64,000 nucleotides of DNA from positions 1 through 64,000 of the forward strand of contig JAGWIJ010000002.1 in assembly GCA_028873535.1 (NCBI GenBank), written 5' to 3'. Shown piece after piece: positions 46,799 to 64,000 of the stretch. The DNA comes from Pseudomonadota bacterium (GTDB taxonomy: Bacteria; Pseudomonadota; Gammaproteobacteria; Burkholderiales; Ferrovaceae). The notes beneath the pieces were generated by a model. That model was not told the origin of the DNA and did not search any database. It was given only the letters and a program-made list of their open reading frames with translations. The translations under genes and the position numbers were made by a program. Every line of letters begins with the position of its first letter. Within the stretch, counting starts at the first letter, position 1.

Positions 46799-47926
46799 TC
46801 AGACCGCGCAGGGTGCGCTGGCGGGGGGGCGCGCGCGCGTCGAGGCGCGCGTGACCAGGCTGGGTACCAGCGTACGCGGCTCGGCGCGTCCATTCTGGAT
46901 CAATTCAAGCAAGGTCGCGACCAGCAGCCGTCCCCCCTCTTCGATCGACTGATGCACGGTGGTCAGCGCCGGCTGGAAGTTCTGCGCCAGCGCCACGTCG
47001 TCATAACCAACCACCGAAACCTGCTCCGGAACCGCGATGCCATGCTCGCGCAAGGTTGCAATCACGCCCATGGCGATCAGGTCGCTGCAGGCAAACACCC
47101 CGTCAAAAGCCGGACCATCGGCCAGCAGACGCGCCACGGCCGTGCGGCCGCCATCGCTGAGAAACGATACCGACAGGCAGAGATCAGGGTCAGGCCGGAT
47201 TCCCGCGCGTTGATGGGCCAGAAGGTAGCCCTGGTAGCGATGGGCCACTTCGGCCAGATCGCGTTCTCCCATGAAGGCAATCCTGCGGCGTCCTTCATCG
47301 AGCAATGCTGCCGTGGCCAGCAGTCCGCCGGTCTGGTTGTCGCCGCCGACCGTGCAATACAGCTGGCGCGGCAGTTGCGCGCCCCACACCACGATGGGCA
47401 GGCGGCGCGCCGCAAGGCTGTTGAGTTGTTCGTGGTGGTGCCATTGGCCGACCAGGATCACGCCGACGGCGCGGCCGTTGTCGACATAGCGCCCGGCCTG
47501 CTCGATGTTGTCAGCATCGATGCGCGACAGCAGCATGTCGTAGCCCTGATCCGTCAGGGCATCGGCGAGGCTGCCGACCAGGCTCAGGAAGAACGGGTCG
47601 GACACCGCCTGGCGTCGTTCACCCTCGTAAGGCACCAGCACCGCCACGGTCCGGTTCTGGCCCAGGCGCAGACTCTGCGCGCCGACATTGATGGTGTAGT
47701 TGAGCGAGCGCGCAAGGTCGACAATGCGTTGCCGGGTCTCGGCATTCACCAGCGGCGAACCGTTCATGGCGCGCGACACCGTGGCAGTGGACACCCCGGC
47801 CAGTCGCGCGATGTCGGTCATTTGCAGGCGGCGTTGCGCGGGGCTGGCATCCCGGTACGCGGCCACAGGGGATTCGCCGTCGGCAACATTCGCGCGGGCG
47901 TGCTCGGGTTTGGGTGCTTGGGGCAT
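46799..47926 (-). CDS. LacI-family transcriptional regulator
   Basis: MTDIARLAGVSTATVSRAMNGSPLVNAETRQRIVDLARSLNYTINVGAQSLRLGQNRTVAVLVP; periplasmic-binding-like effector domain. Confidence 0.93.
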   Translation of the reverse strand: MPQAPKPEHARANVADGESPVAAYRDASPAQRRLQMTDIARLAGVSTATVSRAMNGSPLVNAETRQRIVDLARSLNYTINVGAQSLRLGQNRTVAVLVPYEGERRQAVSDPFFLSLVGSLADALTDQGYDMLLSRIDADNIEQAGRYVDNGRAVGVILVGQWHHHEQLNSLAARRLPIVVWGAQLPRQLYCTVGGDNQTGGLLATAALLDEGRRRIAFMGERDLAEVAHRYQGYLLAHQRAGIRPDPDLCLSVSFLSDGGRTAVARLLADGPAFDGVFACSDLIAMGVIATLREHGIAVPEQVSVVGYDDVALAQNFQPALTTVHQSIEEGGRLLVATLLELIQNGRAEPRTLVPSLVTRASTRARPPASAPCAV

Positions 47927-47988
47927 GATCGGTCAGTTTCCCGTATTCTGGCCATCATTGGGCCGAATGTAAACGATCGCCCGGATCG

Positions 47989-49335
47989 CTAGAGCGCAGC
48001 GCCTGCCACCGCCGGCGCTGCGAGGGCCGGCGCCGCGAGGCGGATGCGCAGCGTTGCGGCAGCCGCACACAACATGAGCACACCCGCCATCGAGAGCACG
48101 TGGCGCGGATCGGCGCCGAAAAGCGGCCCATAGAGCAGCGGAAGCGTGAAACCGTTGATCAGCATCGGGATCACGATGAACATGTTGAAAATGCCCATGT
48201 AGACGCCCGTGCGTTCCGGCGGGATGCTGCCCGCCAGCATGATGTAGGGGTTGCCCATGATGCTGCCCCAGGCCAGCCCCATCCCGACCATGGGCAGGAA
48301 CAGCAGGGCCTTGCTCGACACCAGCGGAATTCCGAGCATCGCCAGGCCGCCCGCCATCAGGCAGACGGCGTGCACATGCTTGGCGCCAAAGCGCCGGGTG
48401 GCGGGGATCAGCAGCAGCGTGGCAGCGAACGCGATGCAGTTGTAGAAGGCTCCGGCCTGGCCATTGGTCAGTACCGCCTCGCGGAATGCCGCACTGTGCG
48501 GATCGCTGCTGGCGTAAAGGCTGCGCGCGATGGCGTAGGTGACATAGGTCCAGTAGGTCCCCATGGCATACCACTGGAACAGCTTCATGACCGCCAGCTG
48601 CCGCATCGCGGTCGGCATTTCCCGGATCGCATCGCGAATCTCGATCAGGGCCGTGCCGAAGGTGTGGGTTTTGGCGCGAATGGCGGCAACGGTCCGCGCA
48701 TCCAGCGGCAGTTCACGCACTCGCCAGACCGACCACACGATGGTGGAAAACGACAATAGCGCGCCGATCACGAAAGCCACGCGCGTGATGATCGGGATGT
48801 GGTTGGCATCCATGGCATCGCGGCTGATGCCAAAGGCCACCAGCAGCGTCGGCGTCAGGTAGGACAGGGTCTGCGCGGCACCGGTGAAGGCACTCTGGAT
48901 CAGGAAACCGTGGGCGTGCTGGTCGGCGTTCAGACGGTCACTGACATAGGCGCGGTAGGGCTCCATGGTGATGTTGTTGGCAGCGTCGAGGATCCACAGC
49001 AGGCTGGCAGCCATCCAGATCGCCTGCGCGTAGGGCATCGCGAACAGGGCCAGGCTGCACAGCACCGCACCGATCAGGAAGTAGGGCGTGCGCCGCCCGA
49101 AGCGCGACAGGGTGCGGTCGCTCAGCGCACCGATGATCGGCTGCACCAGCAGGCCAGTCATCGGTCCGGCCAGGGACAGCAAAGGCAGCGAAGCCTCGTT
49201 CGCCCCAAGATAGCTGTAGATCGGCCCCATGTTGCTCTGCTGCAGGCCAAAGCTGAATTGCAGGCCCAGGAAGCCAAGATTCATCTCGAAGAGCTGGCGC
49301 AAGCTCAGATGGGGCTTGCGCACGATGCTGTTCAT
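47989..49335 (-). CDS. MFS/GPH-type sugar transporter (sucrose:H+ symporter-like)
   Basis: [45 protein letters not shown]...[40 protein letters not shown], multiple TM helices. Confidence 0.87.
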
Positions 49336-49397: not shown

Positions 49398-49445
49398 GTT
49401 GCGGTGTTGCGGTGTTGCGGTGTTGCCGTGTTGCCGTGTTGCCGT
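49398..49445. repeat. 8-bp tandem repeat, (GTTGCGGT)3(GTTGCCGT)3
   Basis: Six contiguous octamers read directly; lies between the GH32 stop and the transporter start. Confidence 0.97.
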
Positions 49446-49466: not shown

Positions 49467-51128
49467 TCACGCATCCAGGCGATACACCTGCAGGCGCTGC
49501 AGCACGGCTTCCCCCTGTTCGGACCAGAGGCCAAGACCCAGGCTGCCGGCGCCCGGCACGATGCGTTCCGACAGCCAGCAGCTGCCGTCGAGGCTCAACA
49601 GCTCGATGGAACTCGAATCGAGCAGCAGCCGCAGCCGCACCACCCCGTCCGCCGGCAGCGGCCACGGCGCGTGGCGCCGACCCGCATAGGGCGCGAATGC
49701 GGGCAGGAATCCGGAGGCCGAGCGGTCCAGAAACAGGGCTCCGCGCACTGCGTCATAGCCCACCACGGTGCGCTCGGACAGCCCTGCTTCCGGGCGACCG
49801 ACGCGCAGCAGCAGACCGCAGCTTCCCTGCGGGGGCGGGATCAGTTCGACTTCGATGTCGAGCGCGCGATGTTCGCCCGGACCGGGCCAATCGATCAGAC
49901 GTTCGCCGCTGGCAATCACGCAGGCTGCTTGCGTCAGCAGCGGCTGGCGCAGGGCGCGCAGGCCCGGCACCGGTTGCTGCACCAGCGCCATCCCGACTGG
50001 CCCTTCAGTGCGGCACAGGGACAGCATGCGCGGCAGTGACATCTGGCCGCGCCAGGGCGCCGTCGGGAGCTCCTTGGCGTAGACATGGTTGTCCAGCCAG
50101 CCCAGCCAGATCGCTTCGGCTGCCAAGGCTGGATCGCCATCGGCACCTGGCAGGTTGGACCACGAGGCACTGGCATAGAAATCCATGCCCCAGTCCACCC
50201 ACTGCCAGGCGTGCGCCGGTGCATGGAAAGCGTTGCCGTCGAAGTCACCGAAATACACGCGTGCGCCAGAGCTGCCGGCCACGTGATTCTCGAACACATC
50301 GACCTTGAACATCCACACCGTGCGTGCGGCTGCGCCGTCCTGGGCCGGCAGCGTCAGCGGGATCAGGTCCGGACACTCCCAGATGCCATCGCCATCGTGG
50401 GTCGGCCCGAAGTCGCTGAGGTGGCGCCAATGGCGCAAATCAGACGAAGCGTAGAAACGCGCGCGGCGCAACTCCGACAGCACCACCACCATGATCCAGC
50501 GCGCACTCGGCGCGTGCCAGAACACCTTGGGATCGCGAAAACTGGCGGCGCCAATGTCGAGCACCGGGTTGCCCGCGTATTTGACCCAGGTGCGCCCGCG
50601 ATCCAGGCTGAACGCCAGCTGCTGGTTCTGCAGGCTGCGCGGTGCCTGGGCCGCCCCCGTGTAGATCGCAACCAGGGCCGTCTGCCCTGGACCGGCAAAC
50701 CCTGCGGTGTTGTCCTTATCGACCACGATACTGCCGGAAAAAATCATGTAATCCGGGTCTTCCGGAATTGCCAACGGCAATTCCTGCCAGTGGATCAGGT
50801 CGGTGCTCACGGCGTGTCCCCAACTCATGTGCCCCCAGACGTCGCCGTGGGGGTTGAACTGGAAGAACAGGTGGTACTCGCCGTCGAACCAGACCAGACC
50901 ATTGGGATCGTTCATCCAGTTGCGCCGGGGCGCAAAGTGAAAAAGAGGACGCAGGGCTTCAGAAGGCGTGGCGTTCAATCGGATGCAGTCTCGAGTGGAA
51001 TCAATTTGCGAACGGTCTGATCGTGCTGCTGCCGGCGGTATTGCGTGGCGATGCGAGCCGTTCCGGGTGGCCTGCCGGAGATGACGGCGCCTGTCGGCGC
51101 GCGCTGAGGCCAGCAGATCCGGTGTCAT
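49467..51128 (-). CDS. GH32 glycoside hydrolase (sucrose hydrolase/levanase-like)
   Basis: FHFAPRRNWMNDPNGLVWFDGEYHLFFQFNP, ASFRDPKVFW, GIWECPDLIPL. Start set to the ATG at 51128 (MTPDLLASA, upstream GGAG) because the longest-ORF ATG at 51203 lies in a predicted promoter. Confidence 0.92.
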   Translation of the reverse strand: MTPDLLASARADRRRHLRQATRNGSHRHAIPPAAARSDRSQIDSTRDCIRLNATPSEALRPLFHFAPRRNWMNDPNGLVWFDGEYHLFFQFNPHGDVWGHMSWGHAVSTDLIHWQELPLAIPEDPDYMIFSGSIVVDKDNTAGFAGPGQTALVAIYTGAAQAPRSLQNQQLAFSLDRGRTWVKYAGNPVLDIGAASFRDPKVFWHAPSARWIMVVVLSELRRARFYASSDLRHWRHLSDFGPTHDGDGIWECPDLIPLTLPAQDGAAARTVWMFKVDVFENHVAGSSGARVYFGDFDGNAFHAPAHAWQWVDWGMDFYASASWSNLPGADGDPALAAEAIWLGWLDNHVYAKELPTAPWRGQMSLPRMLSLCRTEGPVGMALVQQPVPGLRALRQPLLTQAACVIASGERLIDWPGPGEHRALDIEVELIPPPQGSCGLLLRVGRPEAGLSERTVVGYDAVRGALFLDRSASGFLPAFAPYAGRRHAPWPLPADGVVRLRLLLDSSSIELLSLDGSCWLSERIVPGAGSLGLGLWSEQGEAVLQRLQVYRLDA

Positions 51129-51174
51129 GACCATGGGCTCCAGGCACACCCGGGGGCAGGGCTGGTCACGAGAA

Positions 51175-51203
51175 ACGCTAGCATGCACGGCAATCGATTG
51201 CAA
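51175..51203 (-). promoter_or_regulatory. Predicted sigma70 promoter plus LacI-type operator for GH32
   Basis: Minus strand TTGCAA-N17-TAGCGT with GCAATCGATTGC palindrome (51190-51201) overlapping -35/spacer. Confidence 0.65.
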
Positions 51204-51218
51204 CGCGCAGCTTGCGCT

Positions 51219-52403
51219 TCAGCCAGAATCCAGCTGGCGCAGGGCGGGTCGCGCCATCGGAACCGACAGGACCGTGCTGCCTACCGCCATCAGCAACAGC
51301 GCCGTGAAAGTCGCCTCGCTGATGATCCGCCGGTCCAGCAGCACGTTGACAAAAAGAATCATGATCAAGGCCTTGGTCTGCAGCAGCCAGCCGATCAGGC
51401 GGGCTTCGGCCGCAGACCAGCCGAGCATGCGGCCAGCAAGATGCACGCCCAGCAGTTTGCCGCCCACGGACGCCAGCAGCAGCAGCGCCGCAACCCCCAG
51501 CACGGACAGTCCACCGACACCCCACTGGGTACGCAGCCCGGTGCTCAGGAAAAACACCGGCATCAGGACCAGCAGCAGCAGGTGGCGCAATTGATCGAGG
51601 TCTTTCCGCGCGAACCATTCGGCTTCGAGTGTGGCGCCCGCAAGGAAGGCACCCACCATGAAATGCAGACCGCACCAGTCTGCGGCAAAAGCCACCAGCA
51701 GCAGCCAGGTCAGTGCCAGATGCCAGCGGTCGCGCGCTGCCCAGCGCCGCATCAGGGCGCGACAGGCCAGCGCCGCGAGTGCGAAAACGAGCAGGAAGGC
51801 AAGCTGCCGCCCGACCCGCTGCCAGTCCATCAGGATCACCGCCAGCACCCCCCAGATGGCGACATCATCGAGGCTGGCATAGCGCAGGATGCGCTGGCCG
51901 AGCGGCTGGCGCAGGATTCCGAGATTTTCCAGGAACAGGATCAGGATCGGCAGGGCCGTCACCGCGCACGCCATGCCGATGCCTGCGACGAACTGCCACG
52001 GCTGTGCCTGCGCGCCCATCCAGCCCGGCCACCGCATCAGCAGCACGGCGAGCAGCGCCCCGGCGAGCAAGGGCACCCCCAGCGCCAGTGCCGCTGTCAC
52101 GCCGGTTTCCCGACGTCGACGCCAGGTCGCGCGCAGATCGAGTTCCAGACCGGCGATCCACACGAACAGCATGACGGCCCACCAGGCGATACCCGTGAGC
52201 GCCTGCACCACCAGCGGCCGGAATACCAGCGCGTGAAGTTCTGGAAACGCGGCTCCCAGGACGCCAGGGCCCAGCGCAATCCCGGCGAGAATCTGCACCA
52301 CCACCAGCGGCGCCATGTCATCGGCAGCCACGGCCCGCCACGCCAGGTAGGGCACGCTGAAGATGATGATCATGGCGAGCAGGAAGACTTCACTGGTACT
52401 CAA
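51219..52403 (-). CDS. Cation:proton antiporter (CPA2/KefB-like membrane domain), TTG start
   Basis: LSTSEVFLLAMIIIFSVPYLAWRAV...LVVVQILAGIALGPGVLG...; multiple TMs; TTG preceded by AGGAGG. Confidence 0.82.
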   Translation of the reverse strand: MSTSEVFLLAMIIIFSVPYLAWRAVAADDMAPLVVVQILAGIALGPGVLGAAFPELHALVFRPLVVQALTGIAWWAVMLFVWIAGLELDLRATWRRRRETGVTAALALGVPLLAGALLAVLLMRWPGWMGAQAQPWQFVAGIGMACAVTALPILILFLENLGILRQPLGQRILRYASLDDVAIWGVLAVILMDWQRVGRQLAFLLVFALAALACRALMRRWAARDRWHLALTWLLLVAFAADWCGLHFMVGAFLAGATLEAEWFARKDLDQLRHLLLLVLMPVFFLSTGLRTQWGVGGLSVLGVAALLLLASVGGKLLGVHLAGRMLGWSAAEARLIGWLLQTKALIMILFVNVLLDRRIISEATFTALLLMAVGSTVLSVPMARPALRQLDSG

Positions 52404-52623
52404 GACTGTCCTCCTGAAGGAAATGCGGCGCCGCGCGGCCACCCGGATTCCAGGCAGGCACCGCGCCGGCACGCAGAGGGCGGCACCGCTCCATGACGGG
52501 CCGTGCCCTCTCGCTGACTCGCGATTGTCGCCGAGTTCGGGCGGTCAGGTGCTCCCGGCATCGCCGGAGGGCGGCGCGCAAATCCCCGCTGCAGCCCATC
52601 CCGGCCATGCTGCAGCGCATGAT

Positions 52624-52651
52624 TGCAATCGATTGCATGCCGGGCTATCTT
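52624..52651 (+). promoter_or_regulatory. Predicted sigma70 promoter plus LacI-type operator upstream of tonB
   Basis: TTGCAA (52623-52628)-N17-TATCTT (52646-52651); perfect 14-bp palindrome TGCAATCGATTGCA at 52624-52637 overlaps -35/spacer. Confidence 0.7.
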
Positions 52652-52724: not shown

Positions 52725-53423
52725 TTGAGCGCCAGCTCGCCTTACCTGGAAGCCAGCAACAGCGGAAAACGCCCGATCGGTCTCGCCATCGCGGTGCTGG
52801 CCCACGTCATTCTGATTTACGGCTTGTTGAACGGCCTGGGACGCAAGGTCATCGAGGTCATCAAGCAACCCCTCGAAACCAAGATCATCGAGGAGGTCAA
52901 ACCGCCCCCGCCCCCGCCGCCGGAAGCCCCGCCCCCGCCGCCCAAGCTGGCGGCACCGCCACCACCGTTCATTCCGCCGCCGGAAATCAAGATCAGCGCC
53001 CCGCCACCCCCGGCACCCACCATCACAGCCGTGGTGCAGGAGCCGCCACCGGCACCGGTCGCGCCGATCATCCAGAAGCCGGCGCCGGTCGAAGTCCAGG
53101 CGGCACCCAAGCCGGCCCCGCCGCCACCGCCACCGGCACCCAAGCCACGCTTTCGGACCAACGTGCGGCCGGTCTATGTGCCGCCGGTGGAAGAACTGGT
53201 GGCGGCCTATCCGCGCCAGGCTGCGCGTGAAGGCATCACCGGGCGGGTCATCGTCCACATCACGGTGGCGCCCTCGGGCGACGTCAAGGACGCCGTGGTC
53301 AAGGAAAGCCAGCCCAAGCGCACCTTCGACAAGGTCGCCCTGGAGTACGTCAAACGCTACAAATTCGAAAAGGGCGACGACGAATTCGAGACCGAACAGG
53401 AAATCGTCTTCAAGCTCGACTGA
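52725..53423 (+). CDS. tonB: Energy transducer TonB (TTG start)
   Basis: N-terminal TM, long Pro-rich linker (KPPPPPPPEAPPPPPK...), C-terminal YPRQAAREGITGRVIVHITVAPSGDVKDAVVKESQPKRTFDKVALEYVKRYKF; RBS GAGGAGG before TTG. Confidence 0.92.
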   Translation: MSASSPYLEASNSGKRPIGLAIAVLAHVILIYGLLNGLGRKVIEVIKQPLETKIIEEVKPPPPPPPEAPPPPPKLAAPPPPFIPPPEIKISAPPPPAPTITAVVQEPPPAPVAPIIQKPAPVEVQAAPKPAPPPPPPAPKPRFRTNVRPVYVPPVEELVAAYPRQAAREGITGRVIVHITVAPSGDVKDAVVKESQPKRTFDKVALEYVKRYKFEKGDDEFETEQEIVFKLD

Positions 53424-53484
53424 GGTCCAGCCCTGCCAGAGTGTCTGCAGTTCCACAAAATCCCTACACAGCGAGGAGTCTGAC

Positions 53485-54339
53485 ATGTCCCTGAAGCACA
53501 TCCTTGGCGGCCTGGCCGCCGCCCTGATCCTGGCGTTTGCCGCCGCCCCGGCCGTCCGCGCCGATGACACCCCGGCTGCCGCGGCGACCGCCGCTGCAGC
53601 GCCCGCCACGGCGAGTGCGCCGGCCGCGCCGAGCGACGCCCCGCCGGGCAGCACCGCCCACGAAACCGTCGACAACCCCTATGGACTGCAGGCACTGTGG
53701 AAAGGCGGCGACTTCGTGGCCCACGGAACGCTGACCATCCTGATGATCATGTCGCTGGGAACCTGGTACATCCTGGTCACCAAACTGATCGAACAGTCGA
53801 AGGTGCTCAAGGCGGCGCGGGAAGCGCAGGACAGCTTCTGGAGTGCCGCCACGGTCACCGAAGGTACCGCAGCGCTTGCCGAAGCCAGCCCCTTCCGCTA
53901 CATCGCGGAAACCGGACTGTCGGCCAATGACCACCATGAAGGCAAACTGGTCGAGGCCATCGATCGCCACAGCTGGGTGACCATGAGCATCCAGCGCGCC
54001 GTCGACCTGATAGCCGCACGCAGCTCGGAAGGCCTGACCTTCCTTGCCACGGTCGGTTCGACCGCGCCCTTCGTTGGGCTGTTCGGCACCGTGTGGGGCA
54101 TCTACAACGCGCTCACCGCCATCGGCATTGCCGGCCAGGCCTCGATCGACAAGGTGGCCGGTCCCGTTGGTGAAGCGCTGATCATGACCGCCATCGGTCT
54201 GGCCGTTGCCGTGCCGGCGGTGCTCGGCTACAACTGGCTGGTCCGTCGCAACAAGACGGCCATGGAGAAGGTGCGCACCTTCGGCGCGGACCTGCATTCG
54301 ATCCTGATCGCCGGCGCCCGCGTCGGCGCGCGCAGCTGA
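53485..54339 (+). CDS. exbB: ExbB/MotA/TolQ proton channel with N-terminal periplasmic extension
   Basis: Signal peptide + Ala/Pro region; LTFLATVGSTAPFVGLFGTVWGIYNALTAIGIAGQASIDKVAGPVGEALIMTAIGLAVAVPAVLGYNW. Confidence 0.92.
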   Translation: MSLKHILGGLAAALILAFAAAPAVRADDTPAAAATAAAAPATASAPAAPSDAPPGSTAHETVDNPYGLQALWKGGDFVAHGTLTILMIMSLGTWYILVTKLIEQSKVLKAAREAQDSFWSAATVTEGTAALAEASPFRYIAETGLSANDHHEGKLVEAIDRHSWVTMSIQRAVDLIAARSSEGLTFLATVGSTAPFVGLFGTVWGIYNALTAIGIAGQASIDKVAGPVGEALIMTAIGLAVAVPAVLGYNWLVRRNKTAMEKVRTFGADLHSILIAGARVGARS

Positions 54340-54349
54340 GCCAGCCGCC

Positions 54350-54784
54350 ATGGCGATGACGATAGGCGCGCCCGAAGGGGGCGGCGAAGACGAAGCCATC
54401 AGCACCATCAACACCACGCCGCTGGTGGACGTGATGCTGGTGCTGCTGATCATCTTCCTGATCACCATCCCGGTGGTCACCCACACGGTGCCCGTCAAGC
54501 TGCCCAAGGAACGCAACCTTCCAACGCAGACCAAACCGGAAAACATCCTGATTTCGGTCACCCAGGATGGCGACGTTTACTGGAATGCCACCTTGATCCC
54601 GGACAATCCGACCCTGGTCGAGCGCCTCAAAAAGGAGGCCGTGAAGGTGCCGCAACCCGAAGTGCATATCCGCGGCGACCAGAAGGCACGCTACGAAGGG
54701 GTCGGGAAAGTGGTCATGGCTTGCCAGCGGGCCGGCATTGCCAAGGTCGGCTTCATTACCGAACCGCCGCCGCGCGGCCAATAA
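54350..54784 (+). CDS. exbD: ExbD/TolR biopolymer transporter (copy 1)
   Basis: ISTINTTPLVDVMLVLLIIFLITIPVVTHTVPVKLPKE. Confidence 0.92.
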   Translation: MAMTIGAPEGGGEDEAISTINTTPLVDVMLVLLIIFLITIPVVTHTVPVKLPKERNLPTQTKPENILISVTQDGDVYWNATLIPDNPTLVERLKKEAVKVPQPEVHIRGDQKARYEGVGKVVMACQRAGIAKVGFITEPPPRGQ

Positions 54785-54797
54785 GGGAGAAACGAAC

Positions 54798-55220
54798 ATG
54801 GCCATGCAAGTGGGAAGCCAGGGCGAAGACGAGCCGATCATGGAGATGAACACCACGCCACTGATCGACGTGATGCTGGTATTGCTGGTGATGCTGATCA
54901 TCACCATCCCGATCCAGACCCATGCCGTGAAGCTCAACATGCCCAATGGAGCGCCGCCGCCGCAGCACAAGGAGCCCGTCGTGGTGACGATCGATGTCGA
55001 CTTCGACGGCACGCTGTATTGGAACGGCACGGCGGTGCCCGACCGCGCCAGTCTGGAGGCCAGATTCCAGCAGGTGGCGGCCGAAACCGACCAGGACGAG
55101 ATCCACCTCAAGCCGAACAAGCTGGTGACCTACGACCATGTCGCGGCGGTCATGGCGTCCGCCCAAAGGCTGGGCGTCACCAAAATCGGATTGGTCGGCA
55201 ACGAACAGTTCATCGAATAA
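54798..55220 (+). CDS. exbD: ExbD/TolR biopolymer transporter (copy 2)
   Basis: MEMNTTPLIDVMLVLLVMLIITIPIQTHAVKLNMP. Confidence 0.92.
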   Translation: MAMQVGSQGEDEPIMEMNTTPLIDVMLVLLVMLIITIPIQTHAVKLNMPNGAPPPQHKEPVVVTIDVDFDGTLYWNGTAVPDRASLEARFQQVAAETDQDEIHLKPNKLVTYDHVAAVMASAQRLGVTKIGLVGNEQFIE

Positions 55221-55241: not shown

Positions 55242-56462
55242 ATGACACTTTCCAAGCAAAGCACGCTGCTGGCATTGGGGCTTGGCCTGGCGTTTGCCAG
55301 CGTCTGCGCCGAGGACAGCCTGCGCCCGGAGATCGGCCGCCACCTGCAGCAGGCCGCCGACCTGGCGCAGAAAGGCAAGGCCAGGGAAGCCCTGGGACAG
55401 ATCGGCGAGGCCGATGCCCTCACTGGCAAAAGTGCCTACGAGAACTTCACCATCGAACGCATGCGTGCCTCGGTCGCCGCCGCCGCCGGTGACAATGCCA
55501 CCGCCGCCAAGTCCTTCGAGGCCGTGGTCGCGGCCAACAGGTTGCCGGCCGCGGACCAGATCAAGGCGGTCGAGGCCCTGGGCGGGATCTATTACCGCCT
55601 CAAGGACTATCCCAGGAGCGCCAGCTGGGTGGCTCGCTATGTCAAGGATGGCGGCAGTGACCCGGCCATGAAAGCGCTGCTCGCGCAGGACTATTATCTG
55701 GCCGGCGACTACGCCGCCGCAGCCAGCGAACTGCAACGCGAGGCGGCCGCGGCCGAAGCGGCTGGCAAACCACCCGCCGAGGAACGGCTGCAGATGCTGC
55801 TGGCCTGCCAGCGCAGCCTGAAAGACAGTAGTGGCTATGTCCACACCATGGAACTGCTGGTGCGCTACTATCCGAAAAAGGAATACTGGTCGGACTTTGT
55901 GCACCGGGTCGAGATCCGCGCCGGCTTTGCGGACCGCTTGCAGATCGACCTGTACCGTTTCAAGTATGCCCACGGTTTTCTCACCCAGCCTGCCCAACTG
56001 ATGGAAATGGCGCAGCTTGCGCTGCAGGCGGGTTTTCCCACGCTTGGCAAGAAGGTCATGGACCAGGGCTTCAGCGCTGGCCTGCTCGGCCGCGGCAGCC
56101 AGGCCGACCGCGAAAGGCGGCTGGCCAGGCTGGTGGACGAGCGCCTGGCCGCGGCGCACACCGATGCTGAGAAGTCCGTGGCGGAGGCCCGCGACAACCG
56201 TGATGGCACCGCACTGATCAACCTGGGCATGCAGGTTGCCGATGCCGGCGACGCCCGGCAGGGCATCGCGCTGGCAGAGGAAGGCTACCGCAAGGGCAAC
56301 TTCCGTCATCCTGACGATGCGCGTCTGCGCCTGGCCGAGGTCTACATCGATCAGAAGCAGGATGGCAAGGCGGTGGGCCTGCTCAAGGGCGTCACGGGCA
56401 GCGATGGCGCCGCCGACGTCGCCCGCCTGTGGCTGCTGCAGGCGCATGCGGCGCAGCCCTGA
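55242..56462 (+). CDS. Exported TPR-like protein of TonB operon
   Basis: Signal peptide (LLALGLGLAFASVCAEDS), helical TPR-like repeats; contiguous with exbD. Confidence 0.75.
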   Translation: MTLSKQSTLLALGLGLAFASVCAEDSLRPEIGRHLQQAADLAQKGKAREALGQIGEADALTGKSAYENFTIERMRASVAAAAGDNATAAKSFEAVVAANRLPAADQIKAVEALGGIYYRLKDYPRSASWVARYVKDGGSDPAMKALLAQDYYLAGDYAAAASELQREAAAAEAAGKPPAEERLQMLLACQRSLKDSSGYVHTMELLVRYYPKKEYWSDFVHRVEIRAGFADRLQIDLYRFKYAHGFLTQPAQLMEMAQLALQAGFPTLGKKVMDQGFSAGLLGRGSQADRERRLARLVDERLAAAHTDAEKSVAEARDNRDGTALINLGMQVADAGDARQGIALAEEGYRKGNFRHPDDARLRLAEVYIDQKQDGKAVGLLKGVTGSDGAADVARLWLLQAHAAQP

Positions 56463-56477: not shown

Positions 56478-57989
56478 TTGACCGCAGCGCTGGCCGCCCT
56501 GATCGAACAGGCCGTCCATTCCGGTCCGGGCGCACCGGAATGGACGCGGATCGAGCAGGACCTGCTGGCCAGCCATGGCCAGGGGCGGGCGGACGCCCTG
56601 ATTCCTGGGCTGCAGCGCATGGTCGAGGCCTGGCCGCAGTCGGCGCAGGCCCACTGGCTGCTCGGTGTCGCGCTGCATGACACCCAAAAGCATGAGGAGG
56701 CGCTGGCCGCCATGGCGCAGGCGGCGGCCCTGGCGCCGCGGCCGGAGATCCTGCTCGGACAGGCCCAACTGTGCCATGAGACCGGGCGTCCGGCGGCCGC
56801 CCGCTTTGCAGCCCTTTGCGCCAGGACGCCCGACGATCCGAGGCTGGTGTGCAAACTGGCCGCCTCGCTCGCTGCGGAAGGCCAGCCGCAGGCCGCCGAA
56901 CAGGTCCTGGTGGCGGCGCTCGAGCGCCATCCGGCATGGCTGGATGGTCAACGGCAGCTCGCCAGCCTGCGCCAGACGGGCGGCAAACCGGACTTCGATC
57001 GCGCTTATGCCGAGGCCGTGCGCCGCGCACCGGACCATGCCGGCCTGCGCCTGGGCTGGTTCACCGAACTCGCCAAGGCGCGCCAGTGGGCATCGGCACG
57101 GCGCGTGATCCAGGACGCCCGGCATACCCTGGGCGAGTTGCCGGCACTGCAGATCGCCAGCGCCTATCTCGATGCCGAATCCGGCGCCGCCGACCACGAT
57201 CCCACGCTGTTCGATGATTTCGGTGTCAGCCTCGATCCCGGCCTTGGCCTCGCACGGGTGCGGCACGCCCTACGCTGCGGCGACGCGGAAAAGGCGGCAC
57301 GCCATGCTGAAGCCTTCCTGTCGACAGCCGCGGCCACCGCCTTCTGGCCCTATCTGTCGATCGCCTGGCGTCTGCTGGGCGACGCGCGTGCCGAGTGGCT
57401 GGATCGCCCGGACCAGTTCATCCGTGTGGCCAGCCTGGGACTCGGCAGCGGGCAACTGGAGGAATTGGCGGTGCTGCTGCGTTCCCTGCACACCATGGCC
57501 GAACCCTATCTGGAACAATCCGTGCGGGGCGGCACCCAAACCGACCGGCCCCTGCTGTTCCGCCATGAACAGCCCATCGTCCGCCTGCGCCAGGCGATAC
57601 GTGAAGCAGTCGCCGAATATGTCGCGGCCTTGCCGCCGCCCGACCCTCGCCATCCACTGCTTGCACCCCAGCGCCAGTCGCTGCGTTTTGCCGGCAGCTG
57701 GTCGGTACGCCTGCGCGACCAGGGTTTCCATTCATGCCACACCCATCCAATGGGCTGGATCAGCTCGGCTTGCTACATTGCATTGCCACCGGCTCCAGGT
57801 GAACCACCTGCCGGCTGCTTGCGCCTGGGGACCCCGCCGCCCGAACTTCGGCTGGATCTCGCGCCTTATCGCGAGATCGCGCCGCAAGCAGGTCAGCTGG
57901 TGCTGTTTCCCGCCACCATGTGGCACGGAACGGTCCCCTTCAAGGGCGAGGAGCGACTCACCGTCGCCTTCGACATGCGGCCGATGTAG
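56478..57989 (+). CDS. TPR protein fused to putative 2OG-Fe(II) oxygenase domain (TTG start)
   Basis: TPR-like N-terminus; C-terminal SWSVRLRDQGFHSCHTHPMGWISSACYIALPP...GQLVLFPATMWHGTVPFKGEERLTVAFDM. Confidence 0.8.
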   Translation: MTAALAALIEQAVHSGPGAPEWTRIEQDLLASHGQGRADALIPGLQRMVEAWPQSAQAHWLLGVALHDTQKHEEALAAMAQAAALAPRPEILLGQAQLCHETGRPAAARFAALCARTPDDPRLVCKLAASLAAEGQPQAAEQVLVAALERHPAWLDGQRQLASLRQTGGKPDFDRAYAEAVRRAPDHAGLRLGWFTELAKARQWASARRVIQDARHTLGELPALQIASAYLDAESGAADHDPTLFDDFGVSLDPGLGLARVRHALRCGDAEKAARHAEAFLSTAAATAFWPYLSIAWRLLGDARAEWLDRPDQFIRVASLGLGSGQLEELAVLLRSLHTMAEPYLEQSVRGGTQTDRPLLFRHEQPIVRLRQAIREAVAEYVAALPPPDPRHPLLAPQRQSLRFAGSWSVRLRDQGFHSCHTHPMGWISSACYIALPPAPGEPPAGCLRLGTPPPELRLDLAPYREIAPQAGQLVLFPATMWHGTVPFKGEERLTVAFDMRPM

Positions 57990-58013: not shown

Positions 58014-60410
58014 TCAGGGTCGCACGGACAGCCGCACGGTGGTGGCCGCAGGCATGTCAGGCAGATCCTGCCGGACCAGCGCGCCCGGTCCATGCAGCTC
58101 CAGGGTGATGCCCGTCCACCAGGGCTGCCAGCTGCCCTGGCGGGCCCCGAACCGCACCGTGACGGCATCATCGCCCTCCTGCTGACAACTGATCGATTGC
58201 CGCAGGAAGGCGCCGCGCGTGAAGGCCATGCTGACGCCATCATCGAGGTACAGGCTGCCGCGACAGTCCGGTCCGGGATAGATGGCGAGAACGAGGCGAC
58301 CACGGGGTGTCTCGCTGGTGCTTTGCACCAGTGGCTGGCGCGGCAGGATGGCCCCCGGCCGAACAAACACCGGCAGGCGTGCGAGCGCGGCGTGCTCGTG
58401 CGCGACACTGCCGGACACAGGACTGCCCGACCAATAGTCATACCAGCCTTCGCCGGGCAAACGCACGTCGAAGGCTGCGCTCGATTCGGGCGTAGGCGGC
58501 GGCGCGATCAGCAGATCCGGGCCCAGCATGAACGCGGTTTCCAGACTGCTGAAGACCGCGCCGTCCGACAGCACGGACGGAAACTCCAGGAATACCGGGC
58601 GCATGAGTGGCAGTCCGCTGCGGCTGTGTTCCTCCGCAAGCGCGTAAAGGTAGGGCAGCAGGCGATAACGCTCTTCGATGTAGTGTCGGCGGATCGCCTC
58701 GTGTTCCGCGCCGCCTGCCCACACTTCCTGCGCCGGCTTGTCCTGCATGTAGTGATCGCGGAAGATCGGATTGAAAGCCCCCACTTCGATCCAGCGCGTC
58801 AGCAGGTCCGGCGTGGGCGCATCGCCGGCAAATCCGCCGATGTCGTCGCCAGCGAAGCCAAAACCGCTCAGGCCCAGATTGACCAGCATGGGCACCGACA
58901 AGCGCAGGTGCTCGTAAGTCGAGAGATTGTCCCCGGTCCAGGTGGCGGCGTAGCGCTGACCGCCGGCATAGCTCGCGCGTGTGAGCACGAATGGGCGTGT
59001 GTCCGGTGCAGCCGCCAGCAGACCTTCGCGTGTCGCCTTGACGTTGAGCATGCCGTAGACGTTGTGCATTTCGGCGTGGCTGGCCTGGCGTGGCCTGAAC
59101 CCGGGTTCTTCGATACGGTGCATCACGTCAAGCGGCATGGTCTTGCTGCGGACCTGGAACAAGGCAGGCTCGTTCATGTCGTTCCAGAAGCCCGCCACAC
59201 CCATCCCCACGAAGCCCCGATACTGCTCGCCCCACCACGTCCGCACAGCCGGCCGGCTGAAATCCGGAAACACCGAGGCGCCTGGCCACACCTCACCGCT
59301 GAAAGTGGAACCGTCGGCGTTGTGCACGAAGGCGTCGATGGCCATACCGCTGTCGTAGGGCCCATAGCCCTGCCCTGCGGCCTTGGCGATGTGAAGATCC
59401 GTGATCAGGACCAGACGGAATCCCTGCGCGCGCAGCGTGGCAACCATGCCTGGCATGTCAGGGAAGGCTGTGGTGTTGACCGTGAAGGGACGGTTGCGAT
59501 CCTGGTAGTCGATGTCACAGTACAGCACGTCCGCCGGAACGTGATCCGCACGCAGGTGATGCGCGACGTCCTGCACTTCCGCCTGCGACATGTAACTGTA
59601 GTGGGATTGCTGAAAGCCCAGTGCCCACAGCGGAACCAGCGGCGCTGTGCCGGCCAGGATGGCGTACTGGCGCACCACATCAGCGGGCGCTGGGCCTGCC
59701 ATGACATAGTAGTCGAGCGGCCCGCCTTCCGCGCTGACCGTGAGGACGTCGCGTGCCGCCTTGCCGAAATCGAAGTTGGTGCGCCAGGTATCGTCGACGA
59801 ACAGCCCGAAGGCACTGCCGCTCTCGCGCGCGCCGATCAGGAACGGGATCGACTTGTAGAGTGGATCCGACGCAGGACCGAATCCGAAGTGGTCGGTGTT
59901 CCAGAGCGTGAACGATCCGTCGCGACGATCCAGCCCGCCCGTCTTGTCACCCAGACCGAAATAGCGCGCATCGGCCGGCATGCGTTTGCGGATCTGGAAG
60001 CCCCCGTCCGTGAAGCGCAGGCCTTCCCCGGCATCCGCCAGCAGCACCTGTCCGCCGGCATCTTCGATCCGGGTCGCGAGCGTGGCGCGGTTCAGGGTGA
60101 TCCGCATGGCGGTAGTCGAAAGCACCACTTCGGTGCTGCCTTCCTGGACCGCCAGGGGCACGGTGGACTGGCGCACCGATGCGGGCACCGTCCAGGAAGC
60201 GTCTTCCGGCAGCCCGCGCTGTCCAGCACGAATGCGCAGGATTTCGGGACGCGGCGCGCTGACTTCCAACTGCACGTCGCCAGCCTGAAGGACGTAGCGC
60301 TGGACCGCCGTCCCGGCCGCGCAGGCGAGCCTGCCAGCTCCGGCCGGGACCAGAATGGCCAGCGCCGCGAGGATTGCGTGGCACACCGACAGGTTCGCGC
60401 GGGTGGCCAT
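58014..60410 (-). CDS. GH31 alpha-glucosidase-like, exported
   Basis: Signal peptide; GFWNDMNEPALF nucleophile motif; RYFGLGDKTGGLDRRDGSFTLWNTD; FAGDDIGGFAG. Confidence 0.92.
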   Translation of the reverse strand: MATRANLSVCHAILAALAILVPAGAGRLACAAGTAVQRYVLQAGDVQLEVSAPRPEILRIRAGQRGLPEDASWTVPASVRQSTVPLAVQEGSTEVVLSTTAMRITLNRATLATRIEDAGGQVLLADAGEGLRFTDGGFQIRKRMPADARYFGLGDKTGGLDRRDGSFTLWNTDHFGFGPASDPLYKSIPFLIGARESGSAFGLFVDDTWRTNFDFGKAARDVLTVSAEGGPLDYYVMAGPAPADVVRQYAILAGTAPLVPLWALGFQQSHYSYMSQAEVQDVAHHLRADHVPADVLYCDIDYQDRNRPFTVNTTAFPDMPGMVATLRAQGFRLVLITDLHIAKAAGQGYGPYDSGMAIDAFVHNADGSTFSGEVWPGASVFPDFSRPAVRTWWGEQYRGFVGMGVAGFWNDMNEPALFQVRSKTMPLDVMHRIEEPGFRPRQASHAEMHNVYGMLNVKATREGLLAAAPDTRPFVLTRASYAGGQRYAATWTGDNLSTYEHLRLSVPMLVNLGLSGFGFAGDDIGGFAGDAPTPDLLTRWIEVGAFNPIFRDHYMQDKPAQEVWAGGAEHEAIRRHYIEERYRLLPYLYALAEEHSRSGLPLMRPVFLEFPSVLSDGAVFSSLETAFMLGPDLLIAPPPTPESSAAFDVRLPGEGWYDYWSGSPVSGSVAHEHAALARLPVFVRPGAILPRQPLVQSTSETPRGRLVLAIYPGPDCRGSLYLDDGVSMAFTRGAFLRQSISCQQEGDDAVTVRFGARQGSWQPWWTGITLELHGPGALVRQDLPDMPAATTVRLSVRP

Positions 60411-60414
60411 GATC

Positions 60415-61917
60415 TCAATCGGCCTTGCAGTGGCGATCGACGTAGGCCTGGTGCGTGGGCATCATCCGGGCACTGTTCGCCATGGTGCCGCGCAGCCGCT
60501 CGATGTAGTCGCTGCCATCCAGGGTGCGGTAGTCCAGGAAGGGGTCGGCACGCTCCGGCATCAGGCCCTGCCCGATCATCACGGCGAGCCAGCTGGGGGC
60601 GCCGAACAGGTCCATCTCGCCAGGCACGATGCGCCCGAAGCGGCGGAAGTGCTCCATCTTGTAGTGCAGGCTGTCCGGGATCGCCATCGCCCGGCAATAG
60701 CGCCACAGCTCGCTGTCGTCACGCGCGCCCAGGTGGTAATGCAACACGATGAAGTCGCGTATGCGCTCGTATTCGAGCGCACCGACCCGATTGTATTCCT
60801 GCACCACACAGGGATCGAAGTCGAGGTCGGGGAAGTAGGCAAGCAGTTTGGAAATGCCGGCCTGAATCAGATGGATGCTGGTCGACTCCAGAGGCTCCAG
60901 GAAGCCGCTGGAAAGCCCGATGGCGATCACATTCTTGTTCCACATCTGCCGGCGCCGGCCGGTGCGGAACCGGATCAGCCGCGGATCGGCAAGCGGCTTG
61001 CCTTCGAGGTGCCGCAGAAGCAGGGTGGCGGCTTCGTCTTCCCCCATCAACTGCGAGCTGAACACATGGCCGTTGCCGGTGCGGTGCTGCAGGGGAATCC
61101 GCCATTGCCAGCCCGCTGCATGGGCAACGGAGCGCGTGTAGGGCGTGAACTCGCCACGTTCGCTGGGCACGGCCAGCGCGCGGTCGCAGGGCAGCCAGTG
61201 GCTCCAGTCGTCAAAACCGGTCTTGAGCGTGTCTTCGATCAGCAAGGCCCGCATGCCGGAGCAGTCGATGAACAGATCGCCTGCCACGACCTCGCCGCTT
61301 TCCAGCGTCAGCGCGCGCACGTGGCCGCTGTCAGGATGCTGCTGCACCGAAGCCACCTTGCCCTCGATCCGCCGGGCGCCGCGCTGTTCGGCATGGCTGC
61401 GCAGGAAGCGGGCGTAAAGGCTGGCGTCGAAGTGGTAGGCATACAGATAGGTGGAGCGCACTTCGCGCGGATCGGACAAGGGCCGATCAAAGCGCCCCTC
61501 CTTGGCCGCAGCCCAGGCCATGCAGTATTCCTCAAAGGCGCCGGCGTGCCCGGCGCGCGCCGCGCGCTGCCAGTAGTGCTGGATCTGCACCAGGTCGAAG
61601 GGACGGCCATAGGCGCCAAAGGGATGGAAATAGCGATGTCCCTGCCGGCCCCAGTTGACAAACTGGATGCCGAGCTTGAATGAACCCTGCGTGCGGCGCA
61701 GGAACTCGTTCTCGTCGAGGCCGAGCATGTCGTTGAACTGCCGGATCGGCGGGATGGTCGCCTCACCTACGCCGACGATGCCGATTTCGTCGGATTCGAC
61801 CAGGGTGATGGTGCATTCGCGCTGGATGTTCGCGCACAGGGCTGCGGCGGTCATCCAGCCGGCGGTCCCACCGCCCAGGATGACAACCTTGCGGATCAAT
61901 CGGCTTTGCGTGTTCAT
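60415..61917 (-). CDS. Flavin-dependent (tryptophan-type) halogenase
   Basis: VVILGGGTAGWMTAAAL, FKLGIQFVNW (catalytic Lys context), GWQWRIPLQHRTGNGHVFSS (WxWxIP), GFLEPLESTSIHLIQ. Confidence 0.92.
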   Translation of the reverse strand: MNTQSRLIRKVVILGGGTAGWMTAAALCANIQRECTITLVESDEIGIVGVGEATIPPIRQFNDMLGLDENEFLRRTQGSFKLGIQFVNWGRQGHRYFHPFGAYGRPFDLVQIQHYWQRAARAGHAGAFEEYCMAWAAAKEGRFDRPLSDPREVRSTYLYAYHFDASLYARFLRSHAEQRGARRIEGKVASVQQHPDSGHVRALTLESGEVVAGDLFIDCSGMRALLIEDTLKTGFDDWSHWLPCDRALAVPSERGEFTPYTRSVAHAAGWQWRIPLQHRTGNGHVFSSQLMGEDEAATLLLRHLEGKPLADPRLIRFRTGRRRQMWNKNVIAIGLSSGFLEPLESTSIHLIQAGISKLLAYFPDLDFDPCVVQEYNRVGALEYERIRDFIVLHYHLGARDDSELWRYCRAMAIPDSLHYKMEHFRRFGRIVPGEMDLFGAPSWLAVMIGQGLMPERADPFLDYRTLDGSDYIERLRGTMANSARMMPTHQAYVDRHCKAD

Positions 61918-61973
61918 GGATTCTGCCTCTGCCGGAGCGGCCATGATGCCCTCGCCTCCCCAGGAAAGAAAAG

Positions 61974-62029: not shown

Positions 62030-64000
62030 TCAGAACTTGAAGGTCACCGAACCCACCACGGTACGGCCGTACGCCACCGTGGCCGTGCTGGTGTAGGTGC
62101 CCTGCGCCATCCCGGCCGAGAGACCGTTGATGTACGTCGAGGCAATCGAGTTGAACAGATTGTTCACATGCAGGGAAAAGGACGTGTTCGCATCCCAGGC
62201 ATAGCTTCCCACCAGACTGACCAGGGTATACGGCTCAAGGTAGACATTGGCCGTGCCGACATTGATCGGTGTGGCGTTGGCCCCGGTGATCACCAGCGCA
62301 CCGTAGTAAGGTCCGGTGCGGTAGCTGGGTGACAGCATGTAGGTCACCGAAGGCACGCCATTCGGCTGGATGCCCGTGGTGCCCGTGCCGCAGCCGGTCT
62401 GCGGATAGCAGGTGTTGGCGGTATCGAGGCTGCCATCGCTGTAGGTGACCTGGCCGGTCAGCGCGAAATTGCCGATGCCGTAGGTGCCATCCCATTCGAA
62501 ACCGCGCGCGGAATAGGCATTGTTGGTCGATTGTCCGCAGTTGGTGCTGCCCGTCGGATTGCACAGGGTCAGGTCATAGCCCAGGTAGCTGAACTCGTCA
62601 TGGAACAAGGTGAACTCGGTCGAGTAGCGGCCCCACTTGCCATCGGCAAAATCACCCTGGCTCTTGAAACCGATTTCCTGCTGCAGAACCACCGAATAGC
62701 TGGTCGGCACGGCCGCCGGATTGAGGGCACCGGTGATGGCATTGACGTTGTTGTTGGGCAGGAAGCGGTCGAAGTTCGCGCGACCGCCGCGGCTTGCCCG
62801 GGCAAACACACTGTTGTTGTCGTCGAGCAGATACAGGGCACCGGCGGACCAGCTGTTGTAGCTGATACCGTAGTTCGCCGGTTGCGTGGTGGCGGGATCC
62901 AGGGTCAGCAGTCCTACCTGGCTGCTGGTCGTGCCCGGAATGCTCGAAGGCCCGGTCACGGTCTGCAGGGTATTGGCGCTGCCGGTTTCGGTGATGCCAG
63001 TGACCCGGATCAGGTCGCGGCGTACGCTGGCATCCAGCGACAGGCTGCCGTGATCCCAGCCCAGGGTCAGATAGGGCGCGGTATCCGGCGCCTGGATGTC
63101 ATAGATCCGCCCGGTGCCGTTACCCCAGTTGCCGTTGTAGCCCGCGACACCGTTCTGTGCCAGGGCCACGCTGCCCGACACCGGATTGACCGGCACGCCT
63201 TGCGGGCCGGAAGTCAGGAAGGTGTAGTTCGGGTGCCAGTCGGCGGCGTAGTGCTGGTTCATGTAGAACACGCCGGCCTTGGCGTTCACGTCGTTCTTGC
63301 CGAACACCGAGAACTGCCGCGACAGCGAAGCGTCATTGGCCAGACTGCCGGCATCGCTCACGTTGGTGTAGACCTGCACGCTGTTCGACAGCATGGTGGC
63401 CGGGCTGACCGTCTGGCCGTTGTTGTAGCGGAAGCCGGTGACGGTGCGGCCGGAGCCATTGGCGGCGCCGATCGGGTTACCGATGTAGGAACTGGCCGGA
63501 TTGAAGCCGAGGAAGTAGGTGGAGAACGTGCCGCTCATGTTGGTGTAGCGGAACTTGTCGTCCAGCACCCAGCCGCCACCCGGCAGGTAGTGCAACTCGG
63601 CGCCGAAGGCTTCGGCCTTGGGATGGATGCCGCTGGCCTGCACCTGTTGCAGTTGGCCGTTCGACAGATTGGCCACGTTGAAGTACTGCGAGGCGGGACC
63701 GGTGGTGGCGAAGGTACCTGCGCTGTAGCCGGGGTAGGAGTGCACGCCGGTGACGTTGCCGCCACTGCCCACCGTGTAGGTCACGGGAGCCTGGTTCTGG
63801 TAGGGCTCCTGGTCGTCCAGCAGCTTGATGTAGCCGCGGATGTAGCCCTTGCCGCCATCCAGATCATGGGTCACATTGGCCTTGATCTGGTAGCCCTTCT
63901 CGGCCTGGAAGCCAGGATCCTGCAGGCCATTGCCCTGCACCAGATAGCCGTCGGTATGGAAGCGCCAGCCTTCGGCAATCGGCCCGCCAACCGCGAAATC
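62030..64000 (-). CDS. TonB-dependent receptor, 5' end beyond window
   Basis: Frame continues past the track's M at 63940 (DFAVGGPIAEGWRFHTDGYLVQGNGLQDPGF); long beta-barrel, C-terminal GRTVVGSVTFKF. Confidence 0.92.
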   Translation of the reverse strand, partial: DFAVGGPIAEGWRFHTDGYLVQGNGLQDPGFQAEKGYQIKANVTHDLDGGKGYIRGYIKLLDDQEPYQNQAPVTYTVGSGGNVTGVHSYPGYSAGTFATTGPASQYFNVANLSNGQLQQVQASGIHPKAEAFGAELHYLPGGGWVLDDKFRYTNMSGTFSTYFLGFNPASSYIGNPIGAANGSGRTVTGFRYNNGQTVSPATMLSNSVQVYTNVSDAGSLANDASLSRQFSVFGKNDVNAKAGVFYMNQHYAADWHPNYTFLTSGPQGVPVNPVSGSVALAQNGVAGYNGNWGNGTGRIYDIQAPDTAPYLTLGWDHGSLSLDASVRRDLIRVTGITETGSANTLQTVTGPSSIPGTTSSQVGLLTLDPATTQPANYGISYNSWSAGALYLLDDNNSVFARASRGGRANFDRFLPNNNVNAITGALNPAAVPTSYSVVLQQEIGFKSQGDFADGKWGRYSTEFTLFHDEFSYLGYDLTLCNPTGSTNCGQSTNNAYSARGFEWDGTYGIGNFALTGQVTYSDGSLDTANTCYPQTGCGTGTTGIQPNGVPSVTYMLSPSYRTGPYYGALVITGANATPINVGTANVYLEPYTLVSLVGSYAWDANTSFSLHVNNLFNSIASTYINGLSAGMAQGTYTSTATVAYGRTVVGSVTFKF

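Follow-up and report, generated by a model that had tools for sequence, protein, structure and literature searches.

Sugar import through TonB-dependent receptors is common in environmental bacteria, and it is mostly unknown which TonB-ExbBD powers which receptor. The best comparison for the locus considered here is the sux locus of Xanthomonas campestris, in which SuxR represses the sux genes and sucrose relieves the repression, and where it was left undecided which TonB powers sucrose uptake (PMC1790865). Predicted sites of the ScrR-II regulon of Shewanella stand before genes for a sucrose permease, a sucrose phosphorylase and a TonB-dependent receptor (PMC2996990), and LacI-type regulons with a TonB-dependent receptor for sucrose among their members are already known (PMC1790865, PMC2996990). 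The wider catalogue of LacI-family regulons describes local regulons with palindromic operators that are conserved with the regulator, and it distinguishes 11 non-orthologous groups of sucrose regulators (PMC4052901). In Teredinibacter turnerae, TonB is needed for carbohydrate use and is not clearly iron-regulated (PMC10734418).

The window, by which is meant the whole 64,000-nucleotide stretch of DNA that was analysed, resembles the SuxR/sux locus with its receptor SuxA in that a LacI-family regulator has as its neighbours a TonB-dependent receptor, a transporter of the inner membrane and an enzyme that cleaves sucrose (PMC1790865). As in a SuxR-type regulon, a predicted site stands before the receptor gene and before the GH32-MFS genes, and Massilia and Ideonella are alike in this respect. 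The order tonB-exbB-exbD1-exbD2 also occurs in X. campestris. Unlike the situation proposed here, however, control of tonB-exbBD by SuxR has not been reported (PMC1790865), the ScrR-II paper has no exbB and treats tonB as general background only (PMC2996990), and the main text of the catalogue does not mention TonB (PMC4052901). The accessible part of the Teredinibacter report likewise describes no sugar repressor of tonB, and in Teredinibacter the same TonB proteins also serve iron uptake (PMC10734418). The likeness of the window to the SuxR locus, and to the ScrR-II regulon of other genera, is one of layout. A literature search that left aside subscription papers, figures and supplements found no report of a LacI-family sugar regulator controlling tonB-exbBD. 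In the window, palindromes that are very probably operators of the neighbouring LacI-family protein would bring receptor, energizer, transporter and hydrolase under common control.

Genes of the locus

The proposed repressor is encoded on the minus strand at 46799-47926. The earlier note had called this open reading frame a LacI regulator, and it is a genuine one: Pfam matches above cut-off to PF00356 (LacI, 55.5 bits) and PF13377 (Peripla_BP_3, 109.6 bits) correspond to an N-terminal helix-turn-helix and a periplasmic-binding-like ligand domain, and its homologues with solved structure belong to the LacI family. A named equivalog was considered and dropped, since all 17 NCBIfam models that match the protein do so below cut-off. 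Next to it, also on the minus strand, are genes for an MFS transporter (47989-49335; Pfam MFS_1; NCBIfam TIGR01301 at 79.9 bits, below cut-off), which has weak similarity to the GPH sucrose/proton symporters, and for a GH32 enzyme of the invertase/fructosidase type (49467-51134; Pfam GH32N, 281 bits), whose true start may be the TTG at 50978, since relatives show homology only from about residues 40-60 onward (tblastn). The gap between these two genes holds tandem 8-bp repeats, GTTGCGGT/GTTGCCGT, at 49405-49445. GH32, MFS and LacI may form one transcription unit behind the operator that precedes GH32, and a GH36 alpha-galactosidase gene, convergent with lacI, has no clear site.

The energizer operon lies on the plus strand. 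It begins with tonB (52725-53423; Pfam TonB_C), which has a TTG start after AGAGGAGG, and continues with exbB (53476-54339), an open reading frame whose exact start is not settled and which is 58-84% identical to exbB of relatives, exbD1 (54350-54784), which has homology to conserved tonB-exbB-exbD1-exbD2 operons, and a second exbD, exbD2 (54798-55220), in the same order as in relatives. Both the TonB C-terminal domain and the conserved order tonB-exbB-exbD1-exbD2 thus mark it as an energizer operon. It is followed by a gene for a TPR-like protein (55242-56462, plus), which matches no NCBIfam model and which relatives conserve as the final gene of their tonB-exb operon (tblastn, 37-43% after exbD2 in Ideonella, Rubrivivax and Massilia), and then by one for a TPR protein with a C-terminal 2OG-Fe(II) oxygenase domain (56478-57989, plus; Pfam 2OG-FeII_Oxy_5 and TPR), which probably closes the tonB transcription unit.

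On the minus strand beyond these genes is the TonB-dependent receptor (62030-64000 within the window, with its start at contig position 64633; L009 10030-12633; Pfam beta-barrel). Downstream of it come a gene for a tryptophan-halogenase-like flavoprotein (60415-61944, minus; Pfam Trp_halogenase, 638.6 bits) and one for a GH31 glycosidase (58014-60410, minus; Pfam GH31, 370 bits). The halogenase-like gene adjoins the receptor in Massilia, Ideonella and Rubrivivax too, at 57-75% identity, and its product retains a WxWxIP-like motif (GWQWRIP). Between GH32 and tonB, and divergent from the latter, is a gene for a CPA2-type Na+/H+ antiporter (51219-52403, minus), found also at L056:6739-7956. In the sister genome G001 the antiporter gene is again divergent from tonB and starts some 40 bp past the operator, so that it may be under the same regulation.

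Sugar-gene neighbours in relatives include GH13, a pfkB-type kinase, phosphoglucose isomerase and galactokinase. Taken with the GH32, the GH36 and the GPH-like transporter of the window, these suggest that sucrose and raffinose-type sugars are handled here. Sucrose itself is suggested as inducer and substrate on account of the GH32, the GPH-like MFS transporter and the GH13, pfkB kinase and phosphoglucose isomerase neighbours.

Operator sites and promoter register

Both palindromes had been correctly located in the earlier note. Operator 1 (51188-51203, minus; TTGCAATCGATTGCCG), which contains the palindrome TTGCAATCGATTGCC at 51203-51189, stands ahead of GH32-MFS-LacI, and operator 2 (52623-52638, plus; TTGCAATCGATTGCAT), with the palindrome TTGCAATCGATTGCA at 52623-52637, stands ahead of tonB-exbB-exbD1-exbD2. 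The promoters read from them proved correct by sequence as well: at operator 1 the first TTGCAA, as a -35 element, is followed after 17 nt by TAGCGT (51180-51175), and at operator 2 TTGCAA is followed after 17 nt by TATCTT (52646-52651). A third site, operator 3 (minus; TTGCAATCGTTTGCT), precedes the receptor start in the same register, with TTGCAA, 17 nt and then TAAGTT. The earlier note did not have it because it lies 744 bases beyond the end of the window, with its 14-mer core at contig 64744-64757.

How distinctive are these sites? The genome of the window (3.43 Mb, 193 contigs, 92.9% complete) has two matches to the 14-mer TGCAATCGATTGCA at up to 1 mismatch, namely operator 2, which is exact, and operator 1, with 1 mismatch, where the dinucleotide composition of the window would give 0.02 exact matches and 0.74 at up to 1 mismatch genome-wide. 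Operator 3 has 2 mismatches. At up to 2 mismatches the 14-mer is found in 8 places in the genome against about 13 expected, which is chance level, and 2-mismatch matches taken alone are uninformative; those elsewhere in the genome were for this reason not counted as further sites. A 16-position matrix built from 25 site sequences returned, at E values up to 10 and with 150 of 1410 first-look candidates in the genome scored, operators 1-3 only, with operator 2 as the top match among the candidates scored. The motif is thus not abundant and scattered across the genome, an outcome that the earlier note had named as contrary to its reading: among these scored candidates there are three sites, all in the cluster. 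A weak fourth site, TGATAATCGATTGCAT, with 4 mismatches, lies at L009:13134-13149 (contig 65134), some 390 bp upstream of the receptor operator, and could be an auxiliary operator or chance.

Across the aligned sites, whose consensus is TTGCAATCGATTGCAA, the central CG is present in 36 of 37, and the palindrome is even, as for operators of the LacI/GalR family. Overlapping tandem operators with a common half-site (for example TTGCAAACGTTTGCAATCGTTTCC) occur ahead of GH32 or MFS genes at L024:13863-13888, L028:13927-13952 and L085:13177-13202. When six promoters from three sister species are aligned (GH32, tonB and receptor of the window genome, tonB of G002, and tonB and receptor of G001), each has the operator, a 7-nt gap and then a TAnCnT-like -10. 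Beyond the operator, conservation centres on the block GCTAnCnT (positions 22-29), and in the hexamer 17 nt past TTGCAA the -10 positions T1, A2 and T6 are invariant in all six. The claim that the operator covers -35 and spacer is, by virtue of this conserved hexamer, well supported within the genus. An exact 17-nt register for all genera was rejected; it holds in the genus of the window, and the GH32 promoters of Massilia are similar. A strict sigma-70 scan did not call the window promoters, its criteria being too strict for the weak -10s of such promoters.

That two unrelated palindromes fell by chance into a 64-kb window is scarcely credible, for although the motif is at chance frequency at 2-3 mismatches, it is unique genome-wide at 0-1 mismatch, keeps its promoter register and is conserved across genera, and footprinting, within the limits of sequence evidence, refutes the idea.

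The regulator and its regulon in other genomes

The assignment of the operators to the LacI protein of the window comes from comparison across genomes. Scanned genome contigs gave 12 close relatives of the protein at 54-59% identity in Massilia, Ideonella, Rubrivivax and metagenome-assembled genomes, mostly of the Burkholderiales; sister species have orthologues at 72-76%, and a further nine, at 45-62%, came from surveying 399 genomes of the order. The recognition helices of these orthologues are near-identical, mostly VS[TV][AS]TVSRA. In that survey the 16-mer is present at up to 1 mismatch in 7 of 11 genomes with the LacI against 20 of 388 without it (Fisher p = 8e-7). Sites of the TTGCAATCGATTGCAA type occur in most genomes with a LacI orthologue, ahead of MFS, receptor, GH13 or GH32 genes, and about two dozen Burkholderiales genomes combine the orthologue with sites before MFS, receptor, GH13/GH32 or tonB. 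The presence of sites before MFS orthologues makes the transporter a conserved member of the regulon. Among distant relatives outside the order (37-43% identity) the motifs have drifted, L086, for instance, having an ACCGGT-centred pair ahead of a receptor. Identification of the palindromes as predicted operators of the LacI at 46799-47926 is strongly supported by these comparisons. In the promoter of lacI itself the nearest thing to a site is a degenerate match, GCGATCGTTTACAT (minus strand, near 47975), which suggests that self-control would be exerted mainly via operator 1.

The genome encodes four other clear LacI-family proteins, and since related LacI proteins can read similar motifs, the palindromes might belong to one of these and not to the adjacent LacI. 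This is very unlikely, as the recognition helices of the paralogues differ from the type shared by the orthologues, and the motif follows the orthologues of the adjacent LacI from genus to genus and seldom occurs where that LacI is absent.

The link with tonB extends beyond the window. Among LacI-bearing genomes a site at up to 2 mismatches was found at the tonB/exb promoter in 8 of the 17 inspected, a non-random sample in that some genomes were opened for their pattern matches. Those with a site upstream of tonB or exbB are the window genome, G001, G002, Ideonella paludis, I. aquatica, I. alba (with tonB at a contig break), Ideonella MAG2 and Rubrivivax 53601_E5. In the remaining nine LacI-bearing genomes whose tonB/exb promoter can be read there is no site within 2 mismatches, so the tonB link is not universal in the regulon. 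When 299 scrambled, composition-matched palindromes were applied to 13 of these promoters, none of the promoters was matched at up to 2 mismatches. G003 and G004, sister genomes without the LacI, contain matches to the motif, none of them near their tonB operons. The clearest example of the link is G002, where the LacI, the site, tonB-exbB-exbD1-exbD2, a pfkB kinase, an MFS transporter and phosphoglucose isomerase follow one another in a row. Footprinting thus predicts control of tonB-exbBD by the sugar regulator, and comparative genomics strongly supports placing tonB-exbBD in one regulon with the genes for sugar uptake and hydrolysis; the earlier note had proposed the tie to hydrolysis.

Fundamental to the proposed mechanism is that the first half-site of each operator would double as the -35 element, such that a bound LacI dimer would cover -35 and spacer and so block RNA polymerase. 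Three units would be shut off in this way, GH32-MFS-LacI, tonB-exbB-exbD1-exbD2 with the TPR and 2OG genes, and receptor-halogenase-like-GH31. Entry into the cell of the substrate or a breakdown product, such as sucrose or a fructo- or raffinose-type oligosaccharide, would release the repressor and lead to joint induction of the receptor, the energizer, the inner-membrane transporter and the hydrolase. LacI binding, repression, the inducer and the extent of the transcription units are predictions of this scheme, and for repression as opposed to activation, and for the inducer, it draws on family precedent.

The LacI might instead bind at tonB mainly as an activator or insulator, with tonB not truly repressed together with the sugar genes. 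The site lies 250-620 bases upstream of tonB or exbB in several genomes (618 bases from tonB in G002 and 445 in G001, which is long for a leader), and outside the genus of the window the -10 register is lost. Such a role is nevertheless unlikely, given that in the window the site sits on -35 and spacer of the tonB, GH32 and receptor promoters alike, and that SuxR, the nearest characterised counterpart, is a repressor (PMC1790865).

The energizer operon and its paralogue

Is the energizer reserved for the sugar receptor? The window genome has a second operon of the type tonB-exbB-exbD1-exbD2-TPR on contig C177 (L062:1522-5305), the products of which are 82% (TonB), 81% (ExbB), 91% (ExbD1), 87% (ExbD2) and 78% (TPR) identical to those of the window copy. 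No site within four mismatches was found there in 11 kb, and nucleotide similarity between the two operons begins just inside tonB, so that their upstream regions are unrelated. Sister genomes G003 and G004, which lack the LacI, have the operon without operator, whereas G001 and G002 have, of this operon type, only the operator-bearing copy.

Through the common operator a single energizer is tied to a single sugar pathway, while the paralogue that lacks the operator provides a built-in control; elsewhere, energizers could be assigned by searching for the site of a sugar regulator upstream of tonB. With this paralogue present, a division of labour between the two operons of the window genome is plausible, and the sugar receptor may preferentially use the TonB of the window. 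It is a tentative proposal, somewhat short of an even chance, that a LacI regulon of the sucrose/raffinose type has taken in the four-gene TonB-ExbB-ExbD1-ExbD2 motor, which in the window genome has split by duplication into sugar-switched and operator-less copies and constitutes an energizer specialised for carbohydrate receptors.

The alternative that best holds its ground accepts the co-regulation and takes TonB-ExbBD as a general energizer that is topped up on sugar and not dedicated to the receptor. This is possible to much the same degree, a little below evens, and it is compatible with control by the LacI, touching only the last step of the argument. Since the operator-bearing copy is the sole one of its type in G001 and G002, where it may work for further receptors as well, the evidence stops short of use for sugar alone, and here the earlier note, which had called the energizer sugar-dedicated, went further than the comparison allows. 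In Xanthomonas, sucrose was still transported when a single tonB gene was mutated, which suggests redundancy (PMC1790865), and in Teredinibacter the same TonB proteins serve both iron and carbohydrate uptake (PMC10734418). Against this, the operator-less paralogue of the window genome could be the general energizer.

In an unrooted tree of ExbB, ExbD1 and ExbD2 the two window-genome copies form a group of their own, separate from the rest of the copies sampled (support 81%), which makes the duplication look lineage-specific and suggests repeated gain or loss of the operator. This tree tags the I. alba C32 copy as 'nosite', but its contig ends inside exbB and its promoter is unread. In I. alba (L047/L071, C30 and C32) exbD1-exbD2 is likewise present in two closely similar copies, as if the energizer operon had recently been duplicated there a second time, independently.
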